From the NCBI RefSeq assembly GCF_003258295.1, contig NZ_QKYN01000161.1:1-53808 (forward strand): a stretch of 53,808 bases of DNA, given 5' to 3'. The position numbers and the translations under genes are program-made. Within the stretch, counting starts at the first letter, position 1. Every line of letters begins with the position of its first letter. This document shows positions 1 to 25,842 of the stretch, in pieces. Source of the DNA: Streptacidiphilus pinicola (lineage in GTDB: Bacteria; Actinomycetota; Actinomycetes; Streptomycetales; Streptomycetaceae). The notes beneath the pieces are model-generated. The model was not told the origin of the DNA. It did not search any database and worked only from the letters and a program-made list of their open reading frames with translations.

Positions 1-1827
1 CCGCGGCCGTCGACGGCCGCGGAGGCGGCCGAGGCGCCCCACGAGGCCGCGACGGCGCGGCCGAGCGCCGAGGCCGTGCCCATGACCCCGGTGAAACCCG
101 CCCAGGTGCCCGCGACCGCGGGGCACGGCGCGGGCGCGGGTGGGGCGGCCCGTGTGGCCGGGGCGCAGGCAGAGGCCGCTGTGCCCGCGCAGTCCGGGCC
201 GGCGCGGGCCGCGCAGCCGGATGTCACCGTGATCGTCGCGGTGTACAACACCATGCCCTACCTGACGACCTGCCTGGAGTCGCTGCTCGCGCAGACGCTC
301 GGCACCGCGCGGATGCAGATCGTCACCGTCGACGACGGCTCGACCGACGGCAGCGGTGCGGTGCTGGACGCGTTCGCGGCCGAGCACCCCGGGTTGGTCG
401 ACGTCGTGCACCAGGCCAACTCCGGTGGCCCGGCGGCGCCGAGCAATCGGGCGCTGGATCTCGCCCGCGGGCGCTTCGTGTTCTTCCTCGGCGCCGACGA
501 CCACCTCGGCCCGGAGGCGCTGGAGCGCCTGGTCGCCGCCGCCGACGCGCACGGCACCGACGTCGTCGCGGGCCGGATGGTCGGCCTGAACGGCCGCTGG
601 GTGCCGAAGGCCGCGTTCGAGCGGCAGCGGCACGACGCCACGCTCGGCAACTCCGCGCTGGCCTGGGCACTGTCGAACACCAAACTGTTCCGCCGCTCGC
701 TGATCGAGCGGCTCGCGCTGCGCTACGACGAGGACCTGCCCGTCCTCAGCGACCAACCCTTCACGCTGGCCGCCCTGTTCGCCGCGGGCCGGGCGTCGAT
801 CCTGAACGACTACGACTACTACTACGCGGTGCGCCGCTACAACGCCGACAACATCACCTACCGGGGCGGACCGGAGCCGCGGTTGCTCGGCACCGAGCGG
901 ATCATGGCCCTGACCGGCCGGCTCGCCGAGTCCCCCGAGGTCCGCGACCGCGTGCACCGGCGCCACCTGGAGGGCGAGCTCGCGGACATCCTCGGCCCGG
1001 CGCTGCTGGAGCTGGACCGGGAGGCGCAGGAGCGGATCACGGCGCGGGTGGGCGCGCTGGTGCGCGAACACGCCACCGACGAGCTGCTGCTGAAGGTGCC
1101 GACCGCCGCCCGGATCCGGCTGCTGCTGGCCCGCGCGGGCGAGGTGGACGCGCTGCTGGAGGCGCTCCGCTTCGAACAGCGGCACCCGCGGCTGCCGCTG
1201 CTGATCCGCGGCGAGCGCGCCCTGCTGGACCACCCGGCCCTCGGCGACGCCCGACTCGGCCTCGACGAGCGGTTCTTCGCCACCGACGCCTCGCTGACCC
1301 GCCTCGACGGCCTGACGGCCGCCCTCGCGCTGGACGCGCGCCGCCGCCCCTGCCTGACCGTCACCGCGCACAGCCCGCTGCCGGGCTACGGCGGGCCGGT
1401 CGCCCGGCTCTGGGCGGAGACCTTCCGGCCCAGCGGCGCCTCGGCCGTGGGCGAGCAGTTCATCGCCCATCCGGCGCTGGTCTCCTACGCGCCCGCCCCC
1501 GACGGCGGGACCACGGTGACCGCGCGCGTCCCGCTCGGGCTGCTGCTGCGGCAGACCCACCTCGGCGCGGCGTCCGGCCCCTGGTCGCTGCGGCTGCGCC
1601 TGCACGGCCGGGCCGCGACGGGGAGCCGCACCCACGAGCTCGGTCCCGTCGGGTGCGACGCACCGGTCAAGCTGCGCGCCTGGCGCGGCCCCCATCTCTT
1701 CCGGGTCTCCGCGACCGTCGGCGCCGAGGGCGAGTTGCAGCTCTCGGTCGCCGCGCTGAGCCTGGTCCGCTCGCTGAAACGACGGCTGCGCCCCACCCCT
1801 CGCGCCGCCCAGGAAGGAAAGACGTGA
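1..1827 (+). CDS. GT2 family glycosyltransferase, 5' end open at window edge
   Basis: Predicted inverting glycosyltransferase of the GT-A fold, probably adding a sugar to a surface polysaccharide or teichoic-acid-like polymer at the inner membrane face. Counting from a GTG at 76, residues 1-48 are a low-complexity Ala/Pro/Gly leader, the GT2 domain begins at DVTVIVAVYN (49-58), the nucleotide-binding segment is VDDGSTDGS and the metal-binding segment is GADDH. The C-terminal 200 residues are Leu/Arg-rich and beta-like, as in polymerising teichoic acid transferases, but I do not recognise them firmly. The frame is open to base 1 with no stop, so the true start may lie outside the window; the GTG at 76 has no convincing ribosome site. 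Its stop overlaps the next gene by 4 bases (GTGA), showing one operon. The acceptor sugar is unknown. Confidence 0.85.
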   Translation, partial: PRPSTAAEAAEAPHEAATARPSAEAVPMTPVKPAQVPATAGHGAGAGGAARVAGAQAEAAVPAQSGPARAAQPDVTVIVAVYNTMPYLTTCLESLLAQTLGTARMQIVTVDDGSTDGSGAVLDAFAAEHPGLVDVVHQANSGGPAAPSNRALDLARGRFVFFLGADDHLGPEALERLVAAADAHGTDVVAGRMVGLNGRWVPKAAFERQRHDATLGNSALAWALSNTKLFRRSLIERLALRYDEDLPVLSDQPFTLAALFAAGRASILNDYDYYYAVRRYNADNITYRGGPEPRLLGTERIMALTGRLAESPEVRDRVHRRHLEGELADILGPALLELDREAQERITARVGALVREHATDELLLKVPTAARIRLLLARAGEVDALLEALRFEQRHPRLPLLIRGERALLDHPALGDARLGLDERFFATDASLTRLDGLTAALALDARRRPCLTVTAHSPLPGYGGPVARLWAETFRPSGASAVGEQFIAHPALVSYAPAPDGGTTVTARVPLGLLLRQTHLGAASGPWSLRLRLHGRAATGSRTHELGPVGCDAPVKLRAWRGPHLFRVSATVGAEGELQLSVAALSLVRSLKRRLRPTPRAAQEGKT

Positions 1828-3107
1828 ACGTCTGCGTAGTCGCCCTCGGCAAGATCGGCCTGCCGTTGGCGGTGCAGTTCGCGAGCAAGGGCCACCAGGT
1901 CGTCGGCGCGGACGTGAACCCGGCCGTCGTGGAGCAGGTCAACGCCGGGACCGAGCCGTTCCCGGGCGAGGCCGAGCTGGACCTGCGCCTCAAGCAGGCC
2001 GTCTCCGCCGGTCTGCTGACCGCCACCACGGACACGGCCGCCGCCGTGGCCGGCAGCGACGTCGTGGTGCTGGTCGTCCCGCTCTTCGTCGACGGCGAGG
2101 GCACGCCGGACTTCTCCCACCTCGACGCCGCCACCGAGGCCGTCGCCGCCGGACTGCAGCCCGGCACCCTGGTCTGCTACGAGACGACGCTGCCGGTCGG
2201 CACCACCCGGGACCGCTGGGCGCCGCTGCTGGAGCGCGGCTCGGGCCTGACCGCGGGCCGCGACTTCCACCTGGTCTTCAGCCCCGAACGGGTGCTCACC
2301 GGCCGGGTCTTCGCCGACCTGCGCCGCTACCCCAAGCTGATCGGCGGCATCGACGCCGCCTCCGCCGCGGCCGGACGCGCCTTCTACGAGGCCGCGCTGG
2401 ACTTCGACGAGCGCCCCGAACTGCCGCGCCCCAACGGCGTCTGGGACCTCGGCACCGCCGAGGCCGCGGAGCTGGCCAAGCTCGCCGAGACCACCTACCG
2501 GGACGTCAACATCGGCCTGGCCAACCAGTTCGCGCGCTTCGCCGACCGGGTCGGCGTGGACATCGCGCAGGTCATCGCGGCCTGCAACAGCCAGCCGTAC
2601 AGCCACATCCACACGCCCGGCATCGCCGTCGGCGGCCACTGCATCCCGGTCTACCCGCGCCTGTACCTGTGGAACGACCCGGAGGCGACCGTCGTGGCCT
2701 CCGCCCGCGCGGCCAACACGGAGATGCCGGCCTACGCCGTCGACCTGCTGGCCGAGGCCTACGGCGAACTGAAGGACGCGCACGTGCTGGTGCTCGGCGC
2801 GGCCTACCGCGGCGGCGTCAAGGAGACCGCGTTCTCGGGCGTCTTCCCGACGGTCGCGGCGCTGCGCGAGCGCGGGGCGATCCCCTACGTCAGCGACCCG
2901 CTCTACACCGACTCCGAACTGGTCGCGCTCGGCCTGCCGCCGCACCGCGGCGAGCCGGTGACGGCGGCCGTGGTCCAGGCGGACCACCCCGAGTACCAGG
3001 CGCTCGGCTCCGCCGACCTGCCCGGCGTCCGGGCCCTGGTCGACGGCCGCCGCACCACCGACCCGGCGCGCTGGCAGGGCGTGCGCCGCGTCGTCATCGG
3101 CGGCTGA
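1824..3107 (+). CDS. nucleotide sugar dehydrogenase (UDP-HexNAc/UDP-glucose dehydrogenase family)
   Basis: Predicted NAD-dependent four-electron oxidation of a UDP-hexose or UDP-N-acetylhexosamine to its uronic acid in the cytoplasm. 427 aa, normal for the family. It shows an N-terminal Rossmann motif (VALGKIGLPLA), the central dimerisation helix, the catalytic cysteine in GGHCIPVYP and the C-terminal UDP-binding domain (VLVLGAAYRGGVKE). Conservation around GGHCIPVYP and the GKIGLPLA start resembles the WecC/WbpA (UDP-ManNAc or UDP-GlcNAc dehydrogenase) branch more than the Ugd at 17548; this assignment is inference. The GTG start is chosen because AGGAAGGA lies at 1811-1818 and the start overlaps the upstream stop by 4 bases. 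It lies between two glycosyltransferase genes, so it probably feeds them a uronic-acid donor. Confidence 0.9.
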   Translation: MNVCVVALGKIGLPLAVQFASKGHQVVGADVNPAVVEQVNAGTEPFPGEAELDLRLKQAVSAGLLTATTDTAAAVAGSDVVVLVVPLFVDGEGTPDFSHLDAATEAVAAGLQPGTLVCYETTLPVGTTRDRWAPLLERGSGLTAGRDFHLVFSPERVLTGRVFADLRRYPKLIGGIDAASAAAGRAFYEAALDFDERPELPRPNGVWDLGTAEAAELAKLAETTYRDVNIGLANQFARFADRVGVDIAQVIAACNSQPYSHIHTPGIAVGGHCIPVYPRLYLWNDPEATVVASARAANTEMPAYAVDLLAEAYGELKDAHVLVLGAAYRGGVKETAFSGVFPTVAALRERGAIPYVSDPLYTDSELVALGLPPHRGEPVTAAVVQADHPEYQALGSADLPGVRALVDGRRTTDPARWQGVRRVVIGG

Positions 3108-3149
3108 ACCCCCGCCCCGCAGAACCATCCAGAGAAGGGCGCGACCGCC

Positions 3150-5807
3150 GTGAACGCGGAGCAGCAGCAGGACCAGGCGGCCGACCTGGCGGACCCCGAC
3201 GAGCGGCTCGACCTCGACGACCGGCCCCGGCTGGCGGTCATCGTCGGCAACGGCATCACCGGCGACTCCCGGGTGCAGAAGACGGCGATCGCCGCCGCCC
3301 GGGACGGCTGGCGGGTCCTGCTGCTCGGCCGCAGCCGCAGCGGCCGGGTGGAGCGCTCCTGGATGGGCCCGATCGAGGTGGTCCGCGTCCCGGTCTGGCA
3401 CAACGTGCGCCGCCAGGTCGCCCACGACCGCGCCCGCGGGCCGCGCAGCCTGGTCACCCGCTTCCGGCTCGACGACGTCGACGCGCTCAAGCGCTACCAG
3501 GCCGCGCACCGCACCTGGGACCGCGCGCTGAGCGCCGAGGTCGGCACGCTGGAACGCGAGGGCCGCGCCTCCGTGCGCCGCAACACGCTCAAGGCCGCGC
3601 TGCGGGCCCGCCGGACCGTGTACCGCGCCCGCAACTGGGCCTTCCGCTGGGAGGGCCGGCAGCAGCCGGACCCGACCGTCCCGGTCGGCGAGTGGCGCCT
3701 GGACTGGCCCGAACTGCTCGACCTGGACCTGGCCTTCGGCCCGGCCATCGAGGAGTTCCGCCCGCACGTCATCCACGCCAACGACGTCACCATGCTGGTC
3801 CCGGCCGCCCACAGCGCCGCCCGTCTGTGGGCCGCCGGCCACCGCTGCTCCTGGCTCTACGACTCGCACGAGTACGTGGCCGGCGTCGAGTGGGGCAACC
3901 CGCTGCGCCAGGCCGCGTACCCCGCGCTGGAGACGGAGTTCATCGGCCGCGCCGACGCCGTCGTCACCGTCTCCCCCGAGATCGCCGGGCTGCTGCGCGA
4001 GGCTCACGGCCTGCGGGAGACTCCGCTCGTCGTCGCCAACACCCCCGTGCGCGAGGCGGTCGGCGTGGACGCGCCCGGCACCGGCGTGCGCGCCCTGTGC
4101 GGGCTCGACGAAAGCGTCCCGCTGCTGGTCTACGCGGGCTGGGTGGACCGCCAGCGCGGGCTGGAGACGGTGGTCGCCGGGCTCGGCGCGCTCCCCGAGG
4201 TGCACCTGGCCCTGGTGACGAACCGCCAGAATCCCTTCGTCCAGGTGCTGCTGGACCAGGCGGCGGAGGTCGGCGCGGCCGACCGCGTGCACGTCCTGCC
4301 GTACGTGCCGCAGCACGCCGTGGCGGACTACATCGCCTCCGCGGACCTCGGCCTGATCCCGTTCCGGCGCACGCCCAACTGTGAGCTGTCGCTGCCGACG
4401 AAGATGGCCGAGTACCTCCACGCCGGCCTGCCGGTGCTGGCCAGCGACGTGAAGACGGTCCGCGCGTTCACCGAGGAGCACGGCATCGGTGAGGTCTTCA
4501 CCGCCGGCGACGCCGTCTCCTTCGCCGAGGCCGCGGCCAAGGCCGTCGCCGCACGCGACGCCCTCGCCGAGCGGATCACCGAGCCGCTGCTGGCCGAACT
4601 CTCCTGGGAGGCCCAGACCGGCACGCTGCTCGACCTGTACCGCCGCCTCGCCGGGACCGGCCCGGAGGCCCCCCGCCCCGACGTGCCGTGGACCGTCACC
4701 GAGCAGGTGCAGCGCCCCGCGCAGAGCGAGGACGGCGCCTCGGCGGTCAACCGCTGGCGGTCCCTGGACGCGTCGGGCGACGTGCGCCTCGGCCTGGGCA
4801 TCGCCAACTACGCGGGCCAGCTGGCCGCGTTCGCCTCGGCAGTCAGCCGCGAGCGCGAGGACGTCTCCTGCGAGGTCGTCATGGCCAGCAGCGCGACGGG
4901 CTTCGGCTACCCCGCCGACGCCTACCTCGACAACTCCCGTCTGGGCTCCGTCGATGTGCAGGTCGAGCAGGTCCGCCGGATCCTCTCCGGCCGCTACACC
5001 CACCTCCTCACCGACGCGTTCCGTCCCGTGCTGGGCTTCCTGAACGGCGACCACATCGGCGCGGACCTCCCCGCGCTGCGGTCGGCGGGCCTCAAGGTCG
5101 CGCTGCTGGCCCACGGCAGCGAGATCCGCCATCCAGGTCGTCACCTGGAGCGCCACGCCGAGTCCCTCTTTCTCGACGCCCCCGCCGAGCAGGTCGCGGC
5201 GATGACCGCGATCGCGGAACGCAACCGCCGCACGGCGGCGGACAGCGGCCTGCCCGTGTACGTCACCACCCCCGACCTGTTGATCGATCTGCCGTGGGCG
5301 ACGTGGGCCCCGCTGGTCGTCGACGTCGACGCGTGGTCGAGCGACGCGCCCGTGCTGGAGCGCAAGCGCCCCGTCGTGGTCCACGCCCCGTCGAAGCGGT
5401 GGACGAAGGGCAGCGGCCGGATCCTCCCGGTGCTGGAGTCGTTGCACGACCAGGGCGCCATCGACTTCCAACTCCTGGAGGGCGTCCCGTGGGAGGAGGT
5501 CCGCCGCCGCATCAGGTCTGCCGACATCGTGGTCGACCAGTTCGCCATCGGCGCCTACGGCACGTTCTCCTGCGAGGCGATGGCGGCCGGCCGCCCGGTC
5601 CTCTGCTACATCTCCGACGAGGTCGAAGCGGTCACCGGCCCCCTCCCCATCGTCAACGCGACGAGCGCGACGCTGCGCGAAGCGGTGGAGTCCCTCCTGG
5701 ACGACCGCGAGGCGGGCGCGCGAATCGGCGCGGAGTCCCTGGCCTTCGTCCGCGAGCACCACGACGGCCGCAGGACGGCCGCGGCGCTGTCGAGCTTCCT
5801 GCAGTAG
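3150..5807 (+). CDS. tandem two-domain GT-B glycosyltransferase (GT4-like)
   Basis: 885 aa, about twice the size of one GT4 enzyme. Residues 28-510 form a complete GT-B protein: the N-terminal half begins LAVIVGNGITGDSRVQKTA, a DSHEY segment follows, and the C-terminal half carries the retaining-enzyme pattern around PTKMAEYLHAGLPVLASD. Residues about 545-885 form a second GT-B-like unit with a HAPSKRWTKGS segment and a second donor-site pattern, GTFSCEAMAAGRPVLCYISDE. The protein may add two sugars in sequence, or the second unit may be a binding module. No signal peptide or membrane helix is visible. The GTG start has a loose AGAAGGG 10-15 bases upstream. It follows the dehydrogenase by 42 bases and is probably in the same operon. 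Confidence 0.85.
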   Translation: MNAEQQQDQAADLADPDERLDLDDRPRLAVIVGNGITGDSRVQKTAIAAARDGWRVLLLGRSRSGRVERSWMGPIEVVRVPVWHNVRRQVAHDRARGPRSLVTRFRLDDVDALKRYQAAHRTWDRALSAEVGTLEREGRASVRRNTLKAALRARRTVYRARNWAFRWEGRQQPDPTVPVGEWRLDWPELLDLDLAFGPAIEEFRPHVIHANDVTMLVPAAHSAARLWAAGHRCSWLYDSHEYVAGVEWGNPLRQAAYPALETEFIGRADAVVTVSPEIAGLLREAHGLRETPLVVANTPVREAVGVDAPGTGVRALCGLDESVPLLVYAGWVDRQRGLETVVAGLGALPEVHLALVTNRQNPFVQVLLDQAAEVGAADRVHVLPYVPQHAVADYIASADLGLIPFRRTPNCELSLPTKMAEYLHAGLPVLASDVKTVRAFTEEHGIGEVFTAGDAVSFAEAAAKAVAARDALAERITEPLLAELSWEAQTGTLLDLYRRLAGTGPEAPRPDVPWTVTEQVQRPAQSEDGASAVNRWRSLDASGDVRLGLGIANYAGQLAAFASAVSREREDVSCEVVMASSATGFGYPADAYLDNSRLGSVDVQVEQVRRILSGRYTHLLTDAFRPVLGFLNGDHIGADLPALRSAGLKVALLAHGSEIRHPGRHLERHAESLFLDAPAEQVAAMTAIAERNRRTAADSGLPVYVTTPDLLIDLPWATWAPLVVDVDAWSSDAPVLERKRPVVVHAPSKRWTKGSGRILPVLESLHDQGAIDFQLLEGVPWEEVRRRIRSADIVVDQFAIGAYGTFSCEAMAAGRPVLCYISDEVEAVTGPLPIVNATSATLREAVESLLDDREAGARIGAESLAFVREHHDGRRTAAALSSFLQ

Positions 5808-6567: not shown

Positions 6568-8220
6568 TCAGGCCTTCAGGCGGGTGACGAGGTTCCGTGT
6601 CGCGATCTGCGCCTGCGGGATCTCCAGCTTCGGTCCGCCGCCCAGCGCCAGCGCCCAGCCGAAGGTGCCGGCGTTGAAGACCCACCCGCCGGCCGTGGCG
6701 CGGTAGAGCGTGGTGTTCTGCTGCTGCATCCGGCTGCGGCCGGCCGCGCGGAACTGGGAGTCGGAGAGCAGCAGGTGCTCGCTCGCCGCGGGCAGCGGCA
6801 CCCCGCGCTGTTGGCCGTCGGCCTCGCCACTGACCAGGTCGGGGAGGAAGTCGCCGTCGATCAGGTCGGTGCCCTGCCAGAACCAGTGCGTGGCGGTGCT
6901 GACCGTCAGCGGGAACGTGCCGACGACCGCTCCGGTGTACTGGCCGCCGAGCAGCCGCTGCTCGGCCAGCGCGCCGTTCGGGGCGGCACGGCGCCAGAAC
7001 GTGGTCGGGCCGGTGGGGTCGTGGATCGGGTCGGGGTCGGTCTTGTAGCAGGTCATCAGCGGGAAGCCGGTGGGGTCCCGGTCGATCCGCACCTTCCAGT
7101 AGCAGTCGTTGGCGGCGAAGGTCGCCAGCGAGAGGCCCCCGGCCACGCCCTGCTCGACGGTCTGCCGCATCTCCTGCGACCAGTACTCGTCGTGGCCGCT
7201 GAAGAGCAGCGCCTGGTGCCGGCTCGGCACGACACGGCCCTCGTGCAGGTCGAGGTTGGTGGCGTAGGTGACGTCCCAGCCCTCGCGCTCGGCCCAGGAG
7301 ACGAAGGCCAGGTCGAGAGCGAACTCGGCGGGCATGCCGTCGTGCTGGTAGGGGCGTCGGAAGCTGACGGCCCGGGAGCGCTGCGGGTAGTGCCGGACGT
7401 ACCGCTGGCGCGCCACCGGCTCGGCGGGGTAGGTGTGGCCGTCGGGCGCCTTGGCCCCGGCCGCAGGGTCCGTGGCGGAGGGCAGGAAACCGTAGTAGAG
7501 GCTGCGGCCCAGCGTGCCGTCGAACGGGTACTGGTTGTAGGCCTGGTAGGTGTTGAACGGCAGCACCACCAGGAACGTACTGGCCCGGCTGTCGTCGCGG
7601 ACCGCGAACGGCACGGCGGTGCGCTCGCCGCGCTCGGTGGTGAAGGAGGCGAGGTAGAGGCCGCTGACCCAGTCGCGCGGGATCTCCAGCGACCAACTGG
7701 GCTGCCAGCTCGTCCGGACCGTGCCGTTCGGCCCGTCCACCTCCGGTGCCGGCTGTTGCTGACCCCGCTGCTTGGGACTGGTCGTCAGCAGCCGCCCGCC
7801 CGCGCCGCCGTAGTGGCCCATCCGGTAGACGGCGACGGTGTAGGACTGCGGGGCGGCGGTGGCGACGTGGAAGGCGATCTGCTCGCCGTGGGTGACGCTG
7901 GTGGTGTCGGCGAAGGCCTTGATCTGGCTCAGGTCGTCGGTGACGGGCGTCGCGCCGCGGTCGGCGGACATCCAGCCCCGGCTGCCGGCCTCGCGGTTCT
8001 CGCGGGTGATCGGGTTGCCGGTGCGCACGTCGGCCGGCCGGGCCGTCGCCGAGCCGTTCCCGGCCCCGCCGCCGTCGTTCTCGGAGCACCCGGCCAGGCT
8101 CGACAGCCCGGCCGCCCCGGCGGCCACTCCCGCGGTCGCGGCGGCGGCTCGACCCACCCCACGCAGCAGGCCGCGTCTTGTGACTTCCCGCATCCGCAGG
8201 TCCCTCGTCCTCGCAGGCAT
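6568..8220 (-). CDS. Tat-exported lipoprotein, N,N-dimethylformamidase beta-subunit-like family
   Basis: About 550 aa. The N-terminus carries a twin-arginine motif in EVTRRGLLRG followed by a hydrophobic stretch and a lipobox ending LAGC, so a Tat-exported lipoprotein is predicted. The body contains the pattern seen in proteins related to the C-terminal domain of the N,N-dimethylformamidase large subunit: YTVAVYRMGHYGG near the start, SGHDEYWS (a Zn/Fe-site-like HDEYW segment) in the middle and NGALAEQRLLGGQYTG later. Its enzymatic substrate is not known; the dimethylformamidase label is by family only. The ATG at 8220 has GGAAG six bases upstream. An ATG at 8193 with GAGGGA upstream is also possible and keeps the whole signal peptide. 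Transcribed alone. Confidence 0.8.
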   Translation of the reverse strand: MPARTRDLRMREVTRRGLLRGVGRAAAATAGVAAGAAGLSSLAGCSENDGGGAGNGSATARPADVRTGNPITRENREAGSRGWMSADRGATPVTDDLSQIKAFADTTSVTHGEQIAFHVATAAPQSYTVAVYRMGHYGGAGGRLLTTSPKQRGQQQPAPEVDGPNGTVRTSWQPSWSLEIPRDWVSGLYLASFTTERGERTAVPFAVRDDSRASTFLVVLPFNTYQAYNQYPFDGTLGRSLYYGFLPSATDPAAGAKAPDGHTYPAEPVARQRYVRHYPQRSRAVSFRRPYQHDGMPAEFALDLAFVSWAEREGWDVTYATNLDLHEGRVVPSRHQALLFSGHDEYWSQEMRQTVEQGVAGGLSLATFAANDCYWKVRIDRDPTGFPLMTCYKTDPDPIHDPTGPTTFWRRAAPNGALAEQRLLGGQYTGAVVGTFPLTVSTATHWFWQGTDLIDGDFLPDLVSGEADGQQRGVPLPAASEHLLLSDSQFRAAGRSRMQQQNTTLYRATAGGWVFNAGTFGWALALGGGPKLEIPQAQIATRNLVTRLKA

Positions 8221-8366
8221 CGCGTCTTCCGGCGGGAGTCTAGGCGGCGCCACCAGGCCCGAACCGGCCTCCGGAGGCCCGGTGACCGACTGTGACCCGA
8301 TTGCGTCCGCGCGGTCCCCAGGACCTCACGCGCCGTCCAGCCGCCGTTCAATCTCACGGCTCGAAC

Positions 8367-17439: not shown

Positions 17440-17547
17440 GGGCGACGACGTCAGGGCGTCCCACCCCACTGCCGCGTACACAGGACAGTCGACTAGGCTC
17501 ACCGAACTCATATGGAACGCCTAACGAGCTGTGGAGGACGTGCGCGT

Positions 17548-18867
17548 ATGCGGCTCACGGTGATCGGCACCGGCTATCTCGGGGCCACGCACGCGGCGTG
17601 CATGGCGGAACTCGGGCACGAGGTCCTCGGCGTCGACGTCGAACCGGACCGGATCGCCGCGCTCCGCTCCGGCCGACTCCCCTTCTACGAGCCGGGCCTG
17701 GACGAGCTGGTGGCCAAGCACGTGGCCTCCGGCCGCCTGCGGTTCTCCACCTCCTACCAGGAGGCGGCGGACTTCGCCGACGTGCACTTCTCCTGTGTCG
17801 GCACCCCGCAGCGCGCCGACGGCAACGGCGCGGACCTGCGCTACGTCGACGCCGTCGTGGAGACCCTCGCGCCGTTCCTGACACGCCCGGCGCTCATCGT
17901 CGGCAAGTCCACCGTCCCGGTCGGCACCGCCGCGCGTCTCGCCGCCCGGATCGCCGAACTGGCCCCGGCCGGCGCCGCGGCCCGGCTCGCCTGGAACCCC
18001 GAATTCCTGCGCGAGGGCTACGCGGTGGCGGACACCCTGCACCCGGACCGGCTGGTCTTCGGCATCGACCCGGCCGCGCCGGAGACCGAGGCCGTACTGC
18101 GCGAGGTCTACGCGACGCCGCTCGCCGAGGGCGTGCCCGCCGTGGTGACCGACTTCCCCACCGCCGAGTTGGTGAAGACCGCCGCCAACGCCTTCCTGGC
18201 CACCAAGATCTCCTTCATCAACGCGATGGCCGAGGTCTGCGAGGCGAGCGACGCGGACGTCACCCAGCTCTCCCGCGCGCTCTCCTACGACGAGCGCATC
18301 GGCGGCCGGTTCCTGGGCGCGGGCGTGGGCTTCGGCGGCGGCTGCCTGCCCAAGGACATCCGCGCGTTCCGGGCGCGGGCCGAGGAGTTGGGTGTCGGTC
18401 CGGCCCTGGCCTTCCTGGGCGAGGTCGACGCGATCAACCTGCGCCGGCGCGAGCGGGTGCCGGCGCTCGCGGAGGAGCTGTGCGGGGGCGACCTCACCGG
18501 ACGCCGGGTGGCCGTCTGGGGTGCGGCGTTCAAGCCCGAGTCGGACGACATCCGCGACTCACCCGCGCTGGACGTCGCCTCCCGGCTGCGTCGCCGCGGC
18601 GCGCTGGTGAGCGTCTACGACCCCAAGGCGATGGACAACGCCCGCAAGCTGCACCCGGAACTCGACTACGCCACCGGCGCGCTGGAGGCCGCCCAGGACG
18701 CGGAGCTGGTGGTCCACCTGACCGAGTGGGCCGAGTTCCGCGCCCTGGACCCGCGGGCCGTGGCCGGGGTCGTGCAGACGCCGCGGCTGATCGACGGCCG
18801 CAACGTGCTCGACGTGGCGGCCTGGCGGGCGGCCGGCTGGAGCGTGCGCTCGCTCGGCCGCCCGTGA
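17548..18867 (+). CDS. ugd: UDP-glucose 6-dehydrogenase
   Basis: 439 aa, normal length. Catalyses NAD-dependent oxidation of UDP-glucose to UDP-glucuronate. Motifs: Rossmann GTGYLGATHA at residues 7-16, the FYEPGLDEL segment, STVPVGT, the catalytic cysteine in GFGGGCLPKDIRAF and the C-terminal GAAFKPESDDIRDSPAL. These are the canonical Ugd/TuaD signatures, distinct from the WecC-like enzyme at 1824. Start at ATG 17548 with GGAGG at 17533-17537. It lies 2.7 kb upstream of a hyaluronan-synthase-like gene, so the UDP-glucuronate may be consumed by that synthase. That link is inference. Confidence 0.93.
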   Translation: MRLTVIGTGYLGATHAACMAELGHEVLGVDVEPDRIAALRSGRLPFYEPGLDELVAKHVASGRLRFSTSYQEAADFADVHFSCVGTPQRADGNGADLRYVDAVVETLAPFLTRPALIVGKSTVPVGTAARLAARIAELAPAGAAARLAWNPEFLREGYAVADTLHPDRLVFGIDPAAPETEAVLREVYATPLAEGVPAVVTDFPTAELVKTAANAFLATKISFINAMAEVCEASDADVTQLSRALSYDERIGGRFLGAGVGFGGGCLPKDIRAFRARAEELGVGPALAFLGEVDAINLRRRERVPALAEELCGGDLTGRRVAVWGAAFKPESDDIRDSPALDVASRLRRRGALVSVYDPKAMDNARKLHPELDYATGALEAAQDAELVVHLTEWAEFRALDPRAVAGVVQTPRLIDGRNVLDVAAWRAAGWSVRSLGRP

Positions 18868-18883
18868 CCGGGCCGGCGGCGGC

Positions 18884-19954
18884 TCAGCTGTTCTGCTCGA
18901 TCTTCAGCAGCGAGCTGAGCACGTAGCTCTCGGCGGCGTGCCCGGCCGCACCGGACAGCGCGTCAGGCTTGCTGGCCGAGGCACCCGTCAGCCCGGACTC
19001 CGAGACGTACAGGAAGCGGTCGCTCACCGCGTGCGTCACCTGGCAGCCGGCCTTGCCGACGCAGAACGAGTCGACGTTGCCGCCGTAGAGCGGGGTCACC
19101 TTGCCGGTGAAGGCGCTCGCGGCGGCCTGGGCGTCGGCCTTGCTGTGGAAGACCACCACCGCGACGGTGACCGCGTGGTTGCCGTTGTTGTAGGTGCCGC
19201 GCAGCACCTGGGCGCAGCCGTTCTTGGTGAGCACCGAGCCGAGACCGTCCATGCTGGCCTTCCAGCACGTGTCGTTGTTGTCGTCCGCGGTGCGGGTGAA
19301 GGTCTTGCCGTCCGCGGTCAGCGTCGTCTTGGCGAAGACGTCGGCGGGCGCCAGCGGCGGGGTGTGCGTGGCCGAGGGCGAGGCGGAGGGCGAGGCCGGA
19401 GCACTGCTCGTGGAGGCGACGGGCGTCGGCGTGGTGGAGGGCCCGGCGTTCGTGTGGTTCTTGGAGCCGGAGAGCCCGAACCAGACCACACCCCCGATCA
19501 CGGCCAGGCCCGCGACCAGCGCGGCGGAGATGACGACGGTGCGCTTGCGCTTGCCCGTGCGCTCGTAGTCGTCGGCCATGCTCGCCCAGTCGGGCTCCTG
19601 CGAGCCGCCGCCAGGCCCGCCAGGGCCGCCGCCGAACGCGGACGCGGGCTGCGTGGGCTGCTGCGCGTACATCTGCTGCTGCACCGGGGGCTGCTGAGCC
19701 TGCTGGGCCTGCTGGGCCTGCTGGGGCTGCTGGGGCTGCTGGGGCTGCTGCGGGTAGCCGTAACCGGGCGCGGGGTACTGCTGCTGCTGCTGAGGTATCT
19801 GCTGCTGCGGTGTGGGCTGCTGGTACTGCTGCGGCTGGGGCTGCTGGGGCTGGGGTTGAGCCTGGGGAGCAGGCTGCGGCGGCACCGGCTGCTGCTGCTG
19901 CGGGTAGAGCCGCGGATCCGGCGGAGAGGCAGAGCCTGACGAGGCTTCGGACAT
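18884..19954 (-). CDS. Q/P-rich single-pass membrane protein with extracytoplasmic domain
   Basis: 356 aa, function unknown. Residues 1-110 are almost entirely Gln, Pro, Ala and Tyr (a disordered cytoplasmic tail), followed by a conserved-looking WASMADDYERTGKRKR segment. One membrane helix lies at about 143-163 (VVISAALVAGLAVIGGVVWF), then a Ser/Thr/Pro linker and a C-terminal domain with four cysteines (DTCWKAS, NGCAQVLRG, SFCVGKAGCQVTH) probably paired outside the cell. The layout is common in streptomycete cell-envelope proteins. ATG 19954 is supported by GGAGGA. It lies between ugd and the synthase gene but in the opposite direction. Confidence 0.8.
   Translation of the reverse strand: MSEASSGSASPPDPRLYPQQQQPVPPQPAPQAQPQPQQPQPQQYQQPTPQQQIPQQQQQYPAPGYGYPQQPQQPQQPQQAQQAQQAQQPPVQQQMYAQQPTQPASAFGGGPGGPGGGSQEPDWASMADDYERTGKRKRTVVISAALVAGLAVIGGVVWFGLSGSKNHTNAGPSTTPTPVASTSSAPASPSASPSATHTPPLAPADVFAKTTLTADGKTFTRTADDNNDTCWKASMDGLGSVLTKNGCAQVLRGTYNNGNHAVTVAVVVFHSKADAQAAASAFTGKVTPLYGGNVDSFCVGKAGCQVTHAVSDRFLYVSESGLTGASASKPDALSGAAGHAAESYVLSSLLKIEQNS
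19691..19753. repeat. seven 9-base repeats encoding PQQ/AQQ
   Basis: Seven near-perfect CTGCTG(G/A)G(C/G)-type units in tandem inside the Q-rich coding region, read on the minus strand as Pro/Ala-Gln-Gln triplets. Simple repeats like this change length readily, so strains may differ here. Confidence 0.75.
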
Positions 19955-20257
19955 GGCGGTTCCTCCATCGATGACGTTCGGTGCCAGGACGAGTCTGACC
20001 GATGCCGGCCTGGAAGGGGGTGCCCGGGGAGCAATCCACCGTCGGACGGAACTCGAGGAGATGTCCCCTCCCACCAAGTTCCTTACAAAATCATGCCTTA
20101 TTCATTCATCACCGATGCATAACAGTTCGTCGAAGGCCTTTTGGTCTGCACGGATTTGTCCAGATTTGACATGCGTCACCGTCATACCATCTCTGTTGCT
20201 GCCGCTTCGCGGCCCTTTTGGATCGATGCGGTGAGCCGCAGGCAAGAACGGGTGGAC
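19955..20257. promoter_or_regulatory. AT-richer intergenic region upstream of the synthase gene
   Basis: 303 bases without a clear gene. The part 20080-20200 is markedly less GC-rich than the rest of the window and contains TTGACA at 20166-20171, a possible minus-35 about 90 bases before the synthase start, with no convincing minus-10 at normal spacing. An ATG-headed frame from 20171 is continuous with the synthase, but its codons are atypical and it is more likely 5' leader. No riboswitch was recognised. Confidence 0.45.
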
Positions 20258-21577
20258 ATGCTGGCCTTCCTGCTCGAACTCGGCAGGTGGTGGACCGACG
20301 GGTCGGTCTATCCGTTTGCCGTGTTCATGGCACTGATCTGGTTCCTCTGGGTCGTCAGGATCGCCCTGGCCCGTCGGTACAAGCCCTGGAAGCGGCCGTG
20401 GACCGCCACCACGTCGGTGATCATCCCGGTGGTCGACGAACCGGAGGAGCTCTTCCGCGACGTGCTGCGGCGCATCATGGTGCAGCGGCCGACCGAGATC
20501 ATCGTGGTCATCAACGGACGCCGCAACCCTGTGCTGGAGAAGATCTGCGCGGATATCGGCATCCACTGGGTGTGGACCGAAATCCCGGGCAAGCGCAACG
20601 CGTTGAAGATCGGCCTGGAGGAGTCCTCCGGCGAGATAGCCGTGCTGGTGGATTCCGACACCATCTGGACCGACAACACGCTCAGCGAGTTGATCAAGCC
20701 GTTCCGCGATCCCGAGGTCGGCGGCGTGACCACCCGTCAGCGCATACTCGAGCCGAGCCGCGCCGTGCTGACCCGCTGGGCGGACTGGCTGGAGAGCGTC
20801 CGCTGCCAGTACTCGATGCCGGCCATGAGCGTGCTCGGCACCGTCGGCTGCCTGCCCGGCCGCACCATCGCCTTTCGCAGCAGCATTCTCTTCGACTGCC
20901 TCGACGACTTCCTCTCCGAGAAGTTCCTCGGCGTCTTCCTCGAGGTGAGCGACGACCGGACGCTGACCAACTACACGTTGAAGCGCGGATATCGGACGGT
21001 CTACCAGTCCACGTCCCTGGTCTACACCGACGCGCCGCTGCAGCTCACCAAGCTCGCCAAGCAGCAGTACCGCTGGGCCCGCGGCTCGCAGTACAACACC
21101 CTGCGCATGCTGCCCTGGATGCTGCGGAACGCGAAGATGCTCTGCCTCTTCTACCTGACGGACATCGCCGTGCCGTTCGTGCTGCTCGGCACCTTCGGCT
21201 CCTGGGTGGCGGCCGCGTTCCACCAGGCGCGCCCCGGCATCTACAACGCGCTGCCGCTGCCCGGTGATCCGACCCGGTCCCTGGTGCTGGTGATCGTGCT
21301 GGCCGCGGTGATGTCGCTGCTGTCCATCGCCATCCGGTTCGGGCGCCACTTCGCCTACCGGCCGCAGGACCTGCTGTTCCTGCCCACATTCATGATCATC
21401 AACACCCTGCTGCTGCTCCCGGTGCGGCTGCTCGGTTTCTTCCGCTGCGCGCACAACGCGAGTTGGGGCACCCGGAAGGACAGCTTCGCCGGTGAGAAGA
21501 GCCGCAGCCCGCTCGTTCTCGTGCCCTATCTGATCGGAGCCATGATGCTGGCGGGTTCGGTGATGATGAGTGTCTAG
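20258..21577 (+). CDS. processive GT2 polysaccharide synthase, hyaluronan-synthase-like
   Basis: 439 aa membrane glycosyltransferase of the HAS/NodC/cellulose-synthase class, expected to polymerise a beta-linked glycan and move it through the membrane. One helix at 17-37, the catalytic domain at 50-300, and about three C-terminal helices. Key sites: VIIPVVDE (54-61), VDSD (131-134, UDP-metal site), SDDRTLTNYTLKRGYRTVYQ (231-250) and QQYRW (269-273). The SDDR-LTNY-TVYQST-TD-P-QL-QQ-RW series follows streptococcal HasA very closely, which supports a hyaluronan-type enzyme, though linkage and sugars cannot be read from sequence. Start taken at ATG 20258; GTG 20231 or 20252 are alternatives because no ribosome site is clear. 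Its 3' end overlaps the GH26 gene by 8 bases. Confidence 0.88.
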   Translation: MLAFLLELGRWWTDGSVYPFAVFMALIWFLWVVRIALARRYKPWKRPWTATTSVIIPVVDEPEELFRDVLRRIMVQRPTEIIVVINGRRNPVLEKICADIGIHWVWTEIPGKRNALKIGLEESSGEIAVLVDSDTIWTDNTLSELIKPFRDPEVGGVTTRQRILEPSRAVLTRWADWLESVRCQYSMPAMSVLGTVGCLPGRTIAFRSSILFDCLDDFLSEKFLGVFLEVSDDRTLTNYTLKRGYRTVYQSTSLVYTDAPLQLTKLAKQQYRWARGSQYNTLRMLPWMLRNAKMLCLFYLTDIAVPFVLLGTFGSWVAAAFHQARPGIYNALPLPGDPTRSLVLVIVLAAVMSLLSIAIRFGRHFAYRPQDLLFLPTFMIINTLLLLPVRLLGFFRCAHNASWGTRKDSFAGEKSRSPLVLVPYLIGAMMLAGSVMMSV

Positions 21578-22769
21578 GTCGGACCAACGACGGGTCCGCC
21601 GCCTGCACTGGTGGAACCGCGGCAGCGGGATCCGGCTGCGGGTCTGGATGGTCGTCAACGTGCTGCTGCTCAGCACGATCAGCTACGGGGTCTACGCCGC
21701 CGTCCAGTCCAAGGCCCAGGGGGCGCCCTTCGCCGGCCTGGGCGTCGCGCCCAGCGCCCCCGGCCTGCTCTCGGGTCTCGGCAGTGGCGGCAAGAAGAAG
21801 CCGGCCGCCACCGTTCCGGACAAGTCGCTCTTCCTGGACCCGAAGGGCGTCTACTTCGGCGCGGCCACCCCCGGCGCGCCCTACAGCTCCGGTGAGGTCT
21901 CCGAGGTGGCCGCCGCGGCCGGCGGGGTGCGCCCGACCATGACGGAGTTCTTCGTCAACTGGACCCAGGACTTCCGGCCCGCCATGATCACCTCCGCCTA
22001 CGACCACGGCACCCTGCCGGTGATCTCCTGGGAGCCCTGGGCGGGCGGCCAGGAGAACAACCTCGGCGGCGGCCAGACCCCGGCGGACCAGACGAACCAG
22101 CCCAAGTACCGGCTGGCCAACATCATCGACGGCTCCTTCGACTCCTACATCACCGCGTTCGCCCAGGGCGTCGCCGCCGCCAAGTGGCCGGTCGCGCTGC
22201 GCTTCGCGCACGAGATGAACGGCACCTGGTACCCGTGGTCGGAGAAGGCCAACGGCAACAAGGCCGGCCAGTACGTCGCCGCCTGGCGGCACGTCCACGA
22301 CCTCTTCCAGAAGGCCGGGGCCACCAACGTCATCTGGGTGTGGAGCCCGAACATCGTCCGCCCGGTGCCGCACACCAAGCTCAGCACCCTCTACCCCGGG
22401 GACGCCTACGTCGACTGGGTCGGCCTGACCGGCTACGGTGTCCGCGAGGCCAGCCCCGCGGACACTTTCGACCCGACGCTGCGTCAGGTCCGGACGTTGA
22501 CCAAGAAGCCGATGCTGATCACCGAGACCGGCGCGCAGCCCGACAAGGACAAGGTCTCCTGGGTGCGCTCCTTCTTCCCGTGGCTCGAGCAGAACCACGA
22601 CATCGTCGGCTTCGTGTGGACCGAGAAGACCAAGACCACCGGGGCCCTCGCGGACTGGCGTTTCGACGGCGACGCCCAGAGCCAGGACGCGTTCCAGACC
22701 GGCATCAGCACGGCGCCGCTGGTGACCGGGCTCGGCGTCACCGAACCTTCGAGCGGGAGCACCCCATGA
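21570..22769 (+). CDS. membrane-anchored GH26 glycosyl hydrolase
   Basis: 399 aa. A basic N-terminus and one uncleaved helix (about 25-45) anchor it with the catalytic domain outside. The GH26 fold is shown by RFAHEMNGTWYPW, with the acid/base Glu215, and LITETGA, with the nucleophile Glu319; both are intact. GH26 enzymes cut beta-mannans, beta-1,3-xylan or mixed-linkage glucans. Here the glycan is unknown, but the GTG start lies inside the synthase gene (8-base overlap), strongly suggesting it trims or releases the polymer made by that synthase. The stop overlaps the GT39 start by 4 bases. It is paralogous to the lipoprotein at 24660. Confidence 0.87.
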   Translation: MSRSDQRRVRRLHWWNRGSGIRLRVWMVVNVLLLSTISYGVYAAVQSKAQGAPFAGLGVAPSAPGLLSGLGSGGKKKPAATVPDKSLFLDPKGVYFGAATPGAPYSSGEVSEVAAAAGGVRPTMTEFFVNWTQDFRPAMITSAYDHGTLPVISWEPWAGGQENNLGGGQTPADQTNQPKYRLANIIDGSFDSYITAFAQGVAAAKWPVALRFAHEMNGTWYPWSEKANGNKAGQYVAAWRHVHDLFQKAGATNVIWVWSPNIVRPVPHTKLSTLYPGDAYVDWVGLTGYGVREASPADTFDPTLRQVRTLTKKPMLITETGAQPDKDKVSWVRSFFPWLEQNHDIVGFVWTEKTKTTGALADWRFDGDAQSQDAFQTGISTAPLVTGLGVTEPSSGSTP

Positions 22770-24634
22770 CCCCCGAGCCCGGCCCAGACGGCGACGAGTC
22801 CGGCTGGTTCACCCGCTCCCGCCCCGAGCCGGACCCGCAGAACCCGATCCCGCACCAGCAGCAGCGCCCCGAGCCGCAGCCGTACCGCCCCCAACCGCTG
22901 CCCGAGTACGGCGGATACGGCGAGAACGGCCAGCACGGCCACTACGCCGCCGCCGAGCCGGACCGCGGCGGCGCCACGCTGCTCCAGGAGGAGGCTGCGG
23001 GCGGCGCCGGCGCCGACGACGACGAGCAGTACATGTGGACGCACCCGGACGAGGAGCCCCGCTACCCCGTCACCGAGGCGGAGCCGCAGGCAGACCCGTT
23101 CGAGGAGGACCACGCCGAGGAGGAGGGCGCCGGCCGCGGCGCCCGCGCGCTGCGCACCGCGGCGCTGCTGCTGGTGCCCTCGGTGGTCACCCTCGTGGTC
23201 GCCGGCTACCAGCTGGGGCAGCGTCAGCTCTGGCAGGACGAGTCGGCGTCCTGGTGGGCGGCCACCCTCTCCTGGTCCCAACTGCTGCACCTGCTCGGCA
23301 ACATCGACATCGTGCTGGCGCCGTACTACGCGCTGATGCACCTGTGGGTCTCCGTCGCCGGCACCTCCGCGGTGGCGCTGCGGGTGCCCTCGCTGGCGGC
23401 CATGTGCCTGTCGGCGGGACTGCTCGGACTGCTCGGCCGCCGGATGTTCAACGCCCGGGTGGGCCTGGTCGCCGGTCTGCTCTTCGCGATGCTCCCGGTC
23501 ACCAGCCGCTACGGGCAGGAGGCGCGTCCCTACGCCCTCACCGTGCTCGCGGTGCTGGCGGCGACGCTGCTGCTCTACCGCGCCCTCGACGACCCGCGCG
23601 CCGACCGCTGGGGCGGCTACGCCCTCTCGCTGCCGTTCACCGGCATGTTCCATCTGGTCGCGGCGCTGGTCCTGGCGGCGCACCTGGTGCTGGTGCTGGT
23701 GGTGGCCAGGAAGCGCTGGGGCGCGTGGGCGGCGGTGGTCGGCTTCTGCGCCGTCCCGGTGCTGCTGATCGCGCTGCTCGGGCACACCCAGTCCGCGCAG
23801 GTCTCCTGGATCTCCACGGACCTGAAGAGCCTGCCGCAGTTCCCGGGCCAGTTCTTCCAGTCCACGCAGGGCATGTACGTCGTCGTCGGCGCGGCGCTGC
23901 TGGGCCTGTTCTTCGCGCGGCGGTACGCGTTCGTGCTGCTGACCTGGACGCTGGTGCCCCCGGTGCTGCTGTTCGCGTCGCGCTCGATGCTGAACCTGTT
24001 CCTGCCGCGGTACCTGCTCTTCACGCTGCCGGCCTGGGCGCTGCTCGGCGCCGTCGGCATCTGCGGCCTGGCCGGGCTGCTCGGTCCGCGCCGCAAGGGG
24101 GTGGCCGTACGGCAGTTGGTCGCGGGCGTCGCCGTGGTCGCGGCGCTCGTCGCGGTCTCCCTGCCGGACCAGCGCACGGTCCGGGCCAACCCGCTGGCGG
24201 GTCAGCCCGACTTCCAGAGCGCGGCCGGCTGGCTGCTCGGTCAGCAGCGGCCCGGCGACGGGATCGCCTTCGCGGGCACCCGCGGCGTGCCGATCCGCAC
24301 CATGGCCTACAACATGCGCGGGTCGAGCCTGCAGCCCAAGGACGTGTTCCTGGCGGAGTCCCCGGCCGACTCGGGCACCTACGAGGGCAAGCCGTGCGTG
24401 GTGCCGTCGACCTGCGCGGCCGGCGTCCAGCGGATCTGGCTGATCTCGACGTCGACCACCGCGTCCTTCTACGACGGGCTGCCGACCAAGCAGCAGATGG
24501 TGCTGACGCAGCAGTTCAAGGTGGTGTCCGAGCAGCGCTTCGTCGGTCAGCTGCGCGTGGTGCTGCTGGAGCGCCGCCCGCCGGCCACGCCGTCGCTGCC
24601 GGTGAAGAAGCCCCACACCAAGGCCAAGCACTGA
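22766..24634 (+). CDS. GT39-type membrane glycosyltransferase (polyprenyl-phosphate sugar dependent)
   Basis: 622 aa. Residues 1-125 are a disordered acidic Pro/Gln/Glu-rich cytoplasmic tail, followed by about 11 membrane helices and a C-terminal soluble domain. The first external loop has the catalytic-type acidic pair in QLWQDESASWWA, and YGQEARPYAL is a conserved signature of PMT/ArnT-like mannosyltransferases. Such enzymes transfer a sugar from a polyprenyl phosphate carrier to a protein or glycan on the outer face. Start ATG 22766 overlaps the GH26 stop (ATGA). As third gene of the synthase operon it may decorate the polymer or a partner protein. Confidence 0.87.
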   Translation: MTPEPGPDGDESGWFTRSRPEPDPQNPIPHQQQRPEPQPYRPQPLPEYGGYGENGQHGHYAAAEPDRGGATLLQEEAAGGAGADDDEQYMWTHPDEEPRYPVTEAEPQADPFEEDHAEEEGAGRGARALRTAALLLVPSVVTLVVAGYQLGQRQLWQDESASWWAATLSWSQLLHLLGNIDIVLAPYYALMHLWVSVAGTSAVALRVPSLAAMCLSAGLLGLLGRRMFNARVGLVAGLLFAMLPVTSRYGQEARPYALTVLAVLAATLLLYRALDDPRADRWGGYALSLPFTGMFHLVAALVLAAHLVLVLVVARKRWGAWAAVVGFCAVPVLLIALLGHTQSAQVSWISTDLKSLPQFPGQFFQSTQGMYVVVGAALLGLFFARRYAFVLLTWTLVPPVLLFASRSMLNLFLPRYLLFTLPAWALLGAVGICGLAGLLGPRRKGVAVRQLVAGVAVVAALVAVSLPDQRTVRANPLAGQPDFQSAAGWLLGQQRPGDGIAFAGTRGVPIRTMAYNMRGSSLQPKDVFLAESPADSGTYEGKPCVVPSTCAAGVQRIWLISTSTTASFYDGLPTKQQMVLTQQFKVVSEQRFVGQLRVVLLERRPPATPSLPVKKPHTKAKH

Positions 24635-24659
24635 GCCACGGTGGGCCGTGCTGCCGTTC

Positions 24660-25727
24660 TCAGCCGCTCGCGGTGGGTGAGGGCGGCAGCACCGAGGCCA
24701 CCGGCCAACGACGCAGCGTCAGTCCGGCCAGCCCCGACCGGAACGCGGTCTGGGTGGCCGGGTCGACGGTGAACCGGTAGTCGTGCCAGGCGCCTTCGGC
24801 GACGCTGTGCTGGAACCAGACGAAGCCGATCACCTGCGGATGCCGGTGCAGCCAGCTGAACAGACTGGCCGTCCACCCGGGCTGCTCGGCGCCCGGCTGG
24901 GCCCCGGTCTCGGCGATCAGGATCGGCTTCCGGGTGAGCTGCAACAGCTGCACCACCGTCGGGTCCAGCACCTCGCCCGCGGTCTTCTCCCCGAAGCCGT
25001 AAGCGTCGACGCCGACCATGTCCACGTAGTCCACGCCCGGGAAGTACGGCTCCACCGACTGCTCCGGCGTGCCCCGCACCGTGTTCGGGCTCCACAGCCA
25101 GATCGCGTTGGTGACCCCGGCGTTGGCGAACACGTCGTGCGCGTGGCGCCAGGCCTTCACGAAGTCGCCCGGCGCGTTCCCGCTGTTCTGCTCCGACCAG
25201 GGGTACCAGTTGCCGTTCATCTCGTGCGCGAAGCGGATGATGACGGGCAGTCCGACCGCTTTCACGGCGAGGGCGTACTGGGTGATGTAGCTGTCGAACG
25301 AGCCGTTCGCGATCCGCTTCAGCGCGTACTCGGGCTGGTCCGTCGCCTTCGACTGCGACGCGGGCTCCCAGGTCAGCAGCGGCACCGCGCCCTCGTCCCA
25401 ACTCTCGCGCACCGCGTCGGGATCGAACGGCTCGGTCCAGTTGCGGAAGTACTCCAGGATCGTCGGATGCTGCCCGGCCGCGGCCACGACACTCGCCGTC
25501 TCCTGCGGCTGCGGCGAACCGACGGTGCTCACCCCGAAGTAGTCCCCGTCGGGGTTCAGCAACTGCGTCGTGGTTGGCACGTTCGGCGTCGGCGCCGCAC
25601 TGGCCCGCCCCGTCGGCCTGACCCAACTCCCGGGCGCCCCCCGCCCCACCCCGTCCGCGGACTCCCCACAACCGGCCGCGCAGAGCACGAGCAGCAGCGC
25701 GAGCAGGGCTGCACGGGTGGTGCGCAA
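24660..25727 (-). CDS. GH26 family lipoprotein
   Basis: About 355 aa lipoprotein: RTTRAALLALLLVL is followed by the lipobox CAAGC. The catalytic domain keeps both glutamates, RFAHEMNGNWYPW (Glu169) and LIAETGA (Glu273). It shares with the GH26 at 21570 the segments NGSFDSYIT, RFAHEMNG, WYPWSE and ETGAQP, so the two are paralogues. Start: a TTG at 25727 gives a compact lipoprotein signal and sits seven bases after GGGGG; an upstream GTG at 25781 would add 18 residues and lacks a ribosome site. Convergent with the synthase operon, separated by 25 bases, and presumed to act on the same polymer. Confidence 0.85.
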   Translation of the reverse strand: MRTTRAALLALLLVLCAAGCGESADGVGRGAPGSWVRPTGRASAAPTPNVPTTTQLLNPDGDYFGVSTVGSPQPQETASVVAAAGQHPTILEYFRNWTEPFDPDAVRESWDEGAVPLLTWEPASQSKATDQPEYALKRIANGSFDSYITQYALAVKAVGLPVIIRFAHEMNGNWYPWSEQNSGNAPGDFVKAWRHAHDVFANAGVTNAIWLWSPNTVRGTPEQSVEPYFPGVDYVDMVGVDAYGFGEKTAGEVLDPTVVQLLQLTRKPILIAETGAQPGAEQPGWTASLFSWLHRHPQVIGFVWFQHSVAEGAWHDYRFTVDPATQTAFRSGLAGLTLRRWPVASVLPPSPTASG

Positions 25728-25842
25728 GAGAAAACCCCCAGGGAACTTCCGGTTCGCCGGGGAGTCTATCCGCCCGCACACACGAACGACCCGTACGCCT
25801 CACGAGTGGCCGGCCAAGGGCGCCAGGAGCCTGGGAACGACG

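Follow-up and report, generated by a model that had tools for sequence, protein, structure and literature searches.

A hyaluronan synthase-like glycosyltransferase co-encoded with a Lic26A-type GH26 hydrolase: a candidate surface-polysaccharide module in Streptacidiphilus pinicola and other bacteria

The actinomycete Streptacidiphilus pinicola carries, on one contig of its 8.43-Mb genome, a small group of genes whose products probably synthesise a surface sugar polymer, secrete it and trim it. The stretch analysed here, referred to as the window, comprises the 53,808 nucleotides of contig NZ_QKYN01000161.1 (C99 of genome G000 in our labelling), and the genes concerned lie at 17.5-25.8 kb. At their core is a family 2 glycosyltransferase (GT2) related to hyaluronan synthases (HASs), the gene of which overlaps that of a membrane-anchored GH26 hydrolase; a UDP-glucose 6-dehydrogenase (UGD) is encoded nearby. 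We put the reading as a whole, a synthase-hydrolase module for a surface polysaccharide that is supplied by UGD in Actinomycetota, at about even odds (0.5), and regard its core, a synthase working with a cognate hydrolase, as very likely.

Gene assignments were based on Pfam and NCBIfam scans of the window proteins, which confirmed every member of the set where an earlier reading of the letters alone (the sequence-only reading) had placed it. The synthase (20258-21577, plus strand; Glyco_tranf_2_3) is joined by an 8-nt stop-start overlap, GTGTCTAG (21570-21577, plus), to GH26a (21570-22769, plus; PF02156, 68 bits against a cut-off of 20), which has an N-terminal helix, predicted to be a membrane anchor, and an extracytoplasmic Lic26A-type domain. 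GH26a shares a further 4-nt overlap, ATGA (22766-22769, plus), with the gene of a PMT_2/GT39-type polyprenol-dependent glycosyltransferase (22766-24634, plus; PF13231, 43 bits against 26), so that both proposed couplings stand in the DNA letters; for this transferase the NF052499 model (mannosyltransferase MT1671) gave 110 bits, below its cut-off of 900. The convergent GH26b (24660-25781, minus strand; PF02156, 64 bits against 20) is a second Lic26A-type enzyme with a lipobox-like AAGC, and at 41% identity to GH26a it is the paralogue it had been taken for. Upstream lie the UGD gene (17512-18867, plus; Pfam UDPG_MGDP_dh N-terminal, central and C-terminal domains), for which a start at 17548 is likelier than 17512, and a gene for a predicted glutamine-rich protein of unknown family (18963-20039, minus) that has no Pfam or NCBIfam match. 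The UGD exceeds the cut-off of the nucleotide sugar dehydrogenase model TIGR03026 (415 bits), and its best equivalogs, TuaD (363 bits) and AglM (351 bits), each fall below their own.

A single scan of genome contigs yielded 77 named loci with synthases at 42-97% identity, that of Streptacidiphilus anmyonensis being the closest to the window synthase (97%). Five loci (L064, L071, L076, L077 and L091) end within 1.2 kb and were excluded as untestable, and in 71 of the other 72 a GH26 gene lies directly downstream of the synthase on the same strand. Retention of the pair in so many testable relatives indicates an association beyond chance, and bears out the expectation of a conserved neighbourhood. 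In 47 of these 71 loci a start codon stands at the position of the 8-nt overlap seen in the window, and in 65 a possible GH26 start overlaps or touches the synthase stop. The paired loci include members of Actinomycetota, Bacillota and records labelled Saccharimonadia and Melainabacteria, and on the Curtobacterium plasmid pTCL a GT2, a glycosyl hydrolase and a UGD are annotated as a trio with overlaps. The GT39 gene, which had been counted as part of the set, is present in the window but accessory elsewhere: its profile found it in 17/77 loci besides the window, and Pfam adds PMT_2 genes near the synthase in Actinocrinis and Actinospica loci that this profile did not count. The family is also patchy. 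Within the order, four of the 147 genomes (G000 included) have orthologues above 700 bits; matches above 300 bits occur in G000 only among 396 genomes of the phylum, and, among 398 genomes of the phylum of G531, in G531 alone.

The affinity of the synthase to HASs, as originally proposed, is supported by both profile and fold searches. In three PDB sequence searches (phmmer and two profile searches, respectively) the top matches were HAS chains, namely CvHAS with 59, 72 and 99 bits and XlHAS1 with 53, 69 and 89 bits, and apart from these the lists held a single molecule, an archaeal mannosyltransferase with 29, 38 and 42 bits; at E < 1e-6 the synthase-family profile thus retrieved HASs and this one mannosyltransferase, with cellulose and chitin synthases absent. 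The AlphaFold model of the synthase (predicted local distance difference test, pLDDT, 88) is nearest in fold to CvHAS with UDP-glucuronate (UDP-GlcA; E 1.6e-18, template modelling score 0.70), followed by other HAS states, PcManGT (1e-12), cellulose synthase (2e-12) and Chs1 (2e-11). When a 76-row profile of the synthase family was scored against more distant relatives, hereafter cousins, and reference synthases, the highest values came from cousins that adjoin beta-helix proteins (225-244 bits), L138 (220) and GT2s paired with UGD in Lactococcus (181-183), then CvHAS (100), NodC (97.5), XlHAS1 (90, over a 230-residue stretch), PgaC (63) and BcsA (3.7). On the last two scores, a BcsA-type or PgaC-type synthase was rejected. 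Because NodC scores about level with the HASs, "HAS-like" is used here for the HAS/NodC branch.

Signature motifs were counted over 78 rows, i.e., the 77 loci and the window. GKRNA (20588-20602, plus), in which Lys112 aligns with CvHAS Lys177, and WGTR (21464-21475, plus), a gating-loop motif common to CvHAS, occur in all 78; the Trp and Gly of WGTR are required for CvHAS activity (PMC11750622). GCLPGRTIAFR (20846-20878, plus) and the SDDR of EVSDDR[TS]LTN (20948-20959, plus), which is GDDR in HASs, are each found in 76/78 rows. The longer form QQxRWxxGSQYN, present in 77/78, contains the QQYRW of the window (21062-21076, plus), the Arg272 of which aligns with CvHAS Arg341. The streptococcal HasA acceptor-site motifs that the sequence-only reading had quoted did not hold up as such: they are general motifs of processive GT2s, from which the family signature (EVSDDR[TS]LTN, GCLPGRTIAFR, QQxRWxxGSQYN) differs. 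In CvHAS, Lys177 and Arg341 are described as holding the carboxylate of glucuronate (GlcA; PMC12987647), and the window synthase has the equivalents Lys112 and Arg272. Following QQxRW, actinobacterial rows carry an Arg and clostridial rows a Glu; this difference in charge was considered as a marker of UGD use and dropped, since L091 has Glu although a UGD lies immediately upstream.

The hydrolase narrows the likely backbone. Both GH26a and GH26b have Clostridium thermocellum Lic26A (endoglucanase H) as their best PDB match (95 and 94 bits), and with the GH26 family profile Lic26A scores 190 bits across almost the whole of its sequence, compared with at most 69.5 among the other GH26 chains listed. 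The GH26a model (mean pLDDT 88) shows a single helix at the N terminus (residues 3-49), and a fold search with it also places the catalytic domain nearest Lic26A (3e-23 versus 5e-15). On these profile and fold scores a mannanase-type GH26 was rejected. Lic26A and the module enzymes share the same catalytic Glu pair, although identity in the structural alignment is 26-27% and the module's GH26s are membrane-anchored or lipoproteins and linked to a synthase. In GH26a the acid/base is Glu215 (HEMNG; 22212-22214, plus) and the nucleophile Glu319 (TETGA; 22524-22526, plus); each is Glu in 72/72 downstream GH26s, the window included, and the pair is also intact in 39/39 other GH26 domains. A further GH26, besides the one directly downstream, is found in 32/77 loci. 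By analogy, a Lic26A-type enzyme points to a gluco-configured backbone with beta-1,3 and beta-1,4 bonds, a point absent from the sequence-only reading. In L060 an Excalibur-like domain was suspected ahead of the GH26 domain and had no Pfam match. Relatives of the module GH26 also occur on 48 viral contigs (L169-L216), the best-scoring of which, L169, has 39% identity, and in only three of 50,697 named phage records; a 16-kb contig filed as viral carries both a synthase (L168, 44%) and a GH26 (L194), and is possibly host sequence.

A UGD gene lies in the examined flanks of 36/77 loci, in five arrangements and from two UGD lineages. In 19 loci it is downstream on the same strand after GH26 (at most 2.7 kb from the synthase domain), in 12 divergent and upstream, in three upstream and co-directional but separated by a gap, in one (L091, a Lachnospiraceae contig) immediately upstream, and in one (L089) convergent. 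The chance expectation is about 1.5% per locus, an arithmetic figure from six UGD-family genes in 8.43 Mb; as the loci are related, we claim no p-value for the enrichment. Compared with UGDs close to relatives of the synthase in Actinomycetota, the window UGD shows 54-91% identity; the UGDs of L089 and L091 group with a Lactococcus UGD and are 24-26% identical to that of the window, which on sequence grounds suggests independent recruitment. We also searched the window UGD in 32 genomes, namely those behind 31 of the 41 loci without a UGD in their flanks and that of L089, and 28 gave a match at E up to 1e-20. Among these, 19/21 Actinomycetota genomes had a match above 300 bits, those of G941 and G943 being weaker or split. 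PF03721 exceeded its cut-off in seven of ten non-actinobacterial genomes, although this family covers other sugar dehydrogenases too and a match is therefore no proof of a UGD; an eleventh non-actinobacterial genome, G533 (L056, labelled Melainabacteria), had a UGD match of 606 bits.

Taken together, these data are consistent with an inner-membrane GT2 that is a relative of class 1 HASs and would polymerise UDP-sugars processively, threading the growing chain through its own membrane channel. Outside the membrane, the co-translated, anchored GH26 would cut or edit the chain, as BcsZ does for cellulose, and GT39 and GH26b could be accessories that decorate the polymer and trim it further. In the actinobacterial versions UGD would supply UDP-GlcA. 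For the product, the likeliest structure is a gluco-configured chain in which beta bonds of the 1,3 and 1,4 types occur. The actinobacterial polymer would contain GlcA, e.g., together with glucose (Glc), as in the capsule of type 3 pneumococci, or with N-acetylhexosamine, and UGD-free lineages would perhaps make a neutral mixed-linkage beta-glucan. We lean slightly towards GlcA being present in the actinobacterial product, and consider a type-3-like alternation of Glc and GlcA possible but doubtful. Equally tentative is the fullest form of the proposal, a widespread system in which a new clade of HAS relatives is translated together with a GH26 of the lichenase type and, in Actinomycetota, produces a glucurono-glucan of mixed 1,3/1,4 linkage, the pair being shared by Clostridia and a Saccharimonadia-labelled genome.

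Several observations weigh against this interpretation. UGD was not seen in the examined flanks of 41/77 loci, some of which were cut short, and three of the ten non-actinobacterial genomes (G946, G951 and G952) had no PF03721 match over the cut-off, which means that GlcA is not universal, if these genomes are near complete; genomes behind loci titled as metagenome-assembled genomes may be incomplete. The uronate-containing glycan of the sequence-only reading is thus plausible for Actinomycetota and does not extend to the whole family. In the window itself a predicted antisense gene (18963-20039) separates UGD from the synthase, and the two are neighbours, as claimed, but not part of the same operon. 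The carboxylate-holding Lys and Arg do not single out enzymes that use GlcA, both being found in NodC, so the residues permit GlcA use without demonstrating it. Lic26A homology predicts linkage by analogy only, and one locus, L098, lacks the downstream GH26. The loci and genomes without UGD, together with the Lic26A-type GH26, would also suit a core pair that makes a neutral mixed-linkage beta-glucan everywhere, with the UGD neighbours serving other glycans. We give this alternative about one chance in four: UGD lies near 36 loci, in 19 of them downstream of GH26 on the same strand, and RiGT2 of Romboutsia ilealis, a Gram-positive GT2 that makes 1,3;1,4-beta-glucan, is BcsA-like with a PilZ domain (PMC10374906), a type from which the module is remote by the E. 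coli BcsA score given above.

A second alternative is that the actinomycete enzyme is a true bacterial hyaluronan (N-acetylglucosamine/GlcA) synthase and GH26 a new kind of hyaluronidase. The UGD neighbour, the WGTR gating loop and the position of HASs as the nearest solved structures in sequence and fold all speak for it, but the phylogeny does not. We built a tree of 59 rows, comprising 35 chosen module sequences (the window included) and 24 references and cousins, in which, as in the other HAS comparisons, HASs were represented by CvHAS and XlHAS1, with streptococcal HasA and Cps3S not among the rows. The module formed its own clade of 36 rows with support of 100/100 (the 35 and the Curtobacterium plasmid), and lay outside another group (96/91) that held CvHAS, XlHAS1, NodC, L139 and Lactococcus. 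Deep placement is unsure because BcsA, PgaC, NodC, CvHAS and XlHAS1 are long branches; by the comparisons made, the module synthase is not a member of the HAS clade. With its HAS affinity and the retained GH26 neighbour, neither of the two results that the sequence-only reading had named as refuting it (a synthase among cellulose or chitin synthases without HAS affinity, or a neighbourhood not conserved in relatives) appeared. There are residue differences as well. The glycine of the HAS GDD is replaced by Ser231 in the window, and SDDR occurs in all aligned module rows. Seven residues past the QQxRW Arg, 76/76 module rows have Tyr, at a position that is Arg in XlHAS1 and in CvHAS (Arg348), although one gapped CvHAS alignment row would instead pair Arg348 with window Arg283; Arg348 is described as conserved among HASs (PMC12987647), and Arg at this spacing is also found in the beta-helix cousins, Lactococcus and NodC. 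None of the 76 module rows has the His or Trp that belongs to the uracil pocket of HASs. With a Lic26A-like GH26 in addition, we consider a hyaluronan synthase improbable, and set hyaluronan aside as the leading candidate product on the grounds of tree placement and residue differences.

The sister of the module clade, with support of 90/50 only, is a clade of seven rows, six of which (L020, L021, L022, L135, L136 and L137) adjoin parallel beta-helix proteins (PF13229/NosD) and one (L138) a BNR-repeat protein. L020, L021, L022 and L137 also have a UGD of 456-698 bits, and in L020 and L021 there is a Chondroitinase B match below the cut-off; the arrangement of the beta-helix loci suggests lyase or epimerase logic, and with it a possible second system for a uronic-acid polymer. 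On Lactococcus plasmids (L101 and L104) a UGD lies directly upstream of a GT2 that is about 30% identical to the window synthase, a pair resembling the two-gene type-3-capsule arrangement. Since a UGD or related dehydrogenase recurs near the cousin synthases (10/19 non-module loci), UDP-GlcA use may be common in the wider branch. GH26 stands beside just one of these 19 loci, some of which are short: in L140 (443-2943) a more remote synthase, which scores 168 bits and falls outside the module clade, is followed directly by a GH26 gene of 254 bits, and the pairing may therefore be older or have arisen twice. That the module GH26s merely scavenge plant beta-glucan and adjoin the synthase by chance, as might be supposed from solved GH26 chains being named mostly mannanases, xylanases or lichenase, is highly improbable given the stop-start coupling, the membrane helix on GH26a, the conservation in 71/72 loci and the scarcity of GH26 among the cousins.

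The proposed module extends a known logic of synthase plus hydrolase. In Streptomyces, CslA/GlxA follows the logic of a synthase with a dedicated extracytoplasmic hydrolase, as does E. coli bcsA-bcsB-bcsZ, the hydrolase family of which differs from the module's GH26; no BcsB or PilZ domain was found among the window proteins scanned. Class 1 HASs (CvHAS and XlHAS1) provide the nearest solved sequence and fold, and share the GKR, DSD, DDR and QQxRW motifs, UGD supply and, in CvHAS, WGTR, and the module synthase differs from them in its separate clade, SDDR, the Tyr at the Arg348 position and its GH26 partner. The Streptococcus pneumoniae type 3 capsule is made by a two-gene logic of cps3D, a UGD, and cps3S, a processive synthase, and its locus is not known to contain a GH26; an alternating 1,3/1,4 Glc/GlcA product would fit a Lic26A-type hydrolase. 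The main text on RiGT2 does not mention GH26 (PMC10374906). No description of a synthase-GH26-UGD system was found in the open-licence literature searched, outside which most subscription papers lie.

If this reading is correct, the module would define a new branch within the superfamily of HAS, chitin and cellulose synthases, one with GH26 as its dedicated partner, and would tie GH26, known mainly from plant-fibre breakdown, to the processing of a bacterium's own glycan. Its hosts would be non-pathogenic producers of a possible uronic-acid polymer, and a glucurono-glucan would parallel, in non-pathogens, the capsule of type 3 pneumococci. The question of what UGD-linked HAS relatives outside pathogens produce thereby becomes testable.

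Elsewhere in the window, a second UGD-family gene (1653-3107) lies between the genes of a TarS-linker GT2 and a group-1 glycosyltransferase, in a separate glycan locus at 76-5807. A gene at 6568-8253 encodes a protein whose C-terminal domain (PF20254) resembles the beta subunit of N,N-dimethylformamidase; it lies between the gene of a hexapeptide transferase and those of a two-component pair of the KdpD type.

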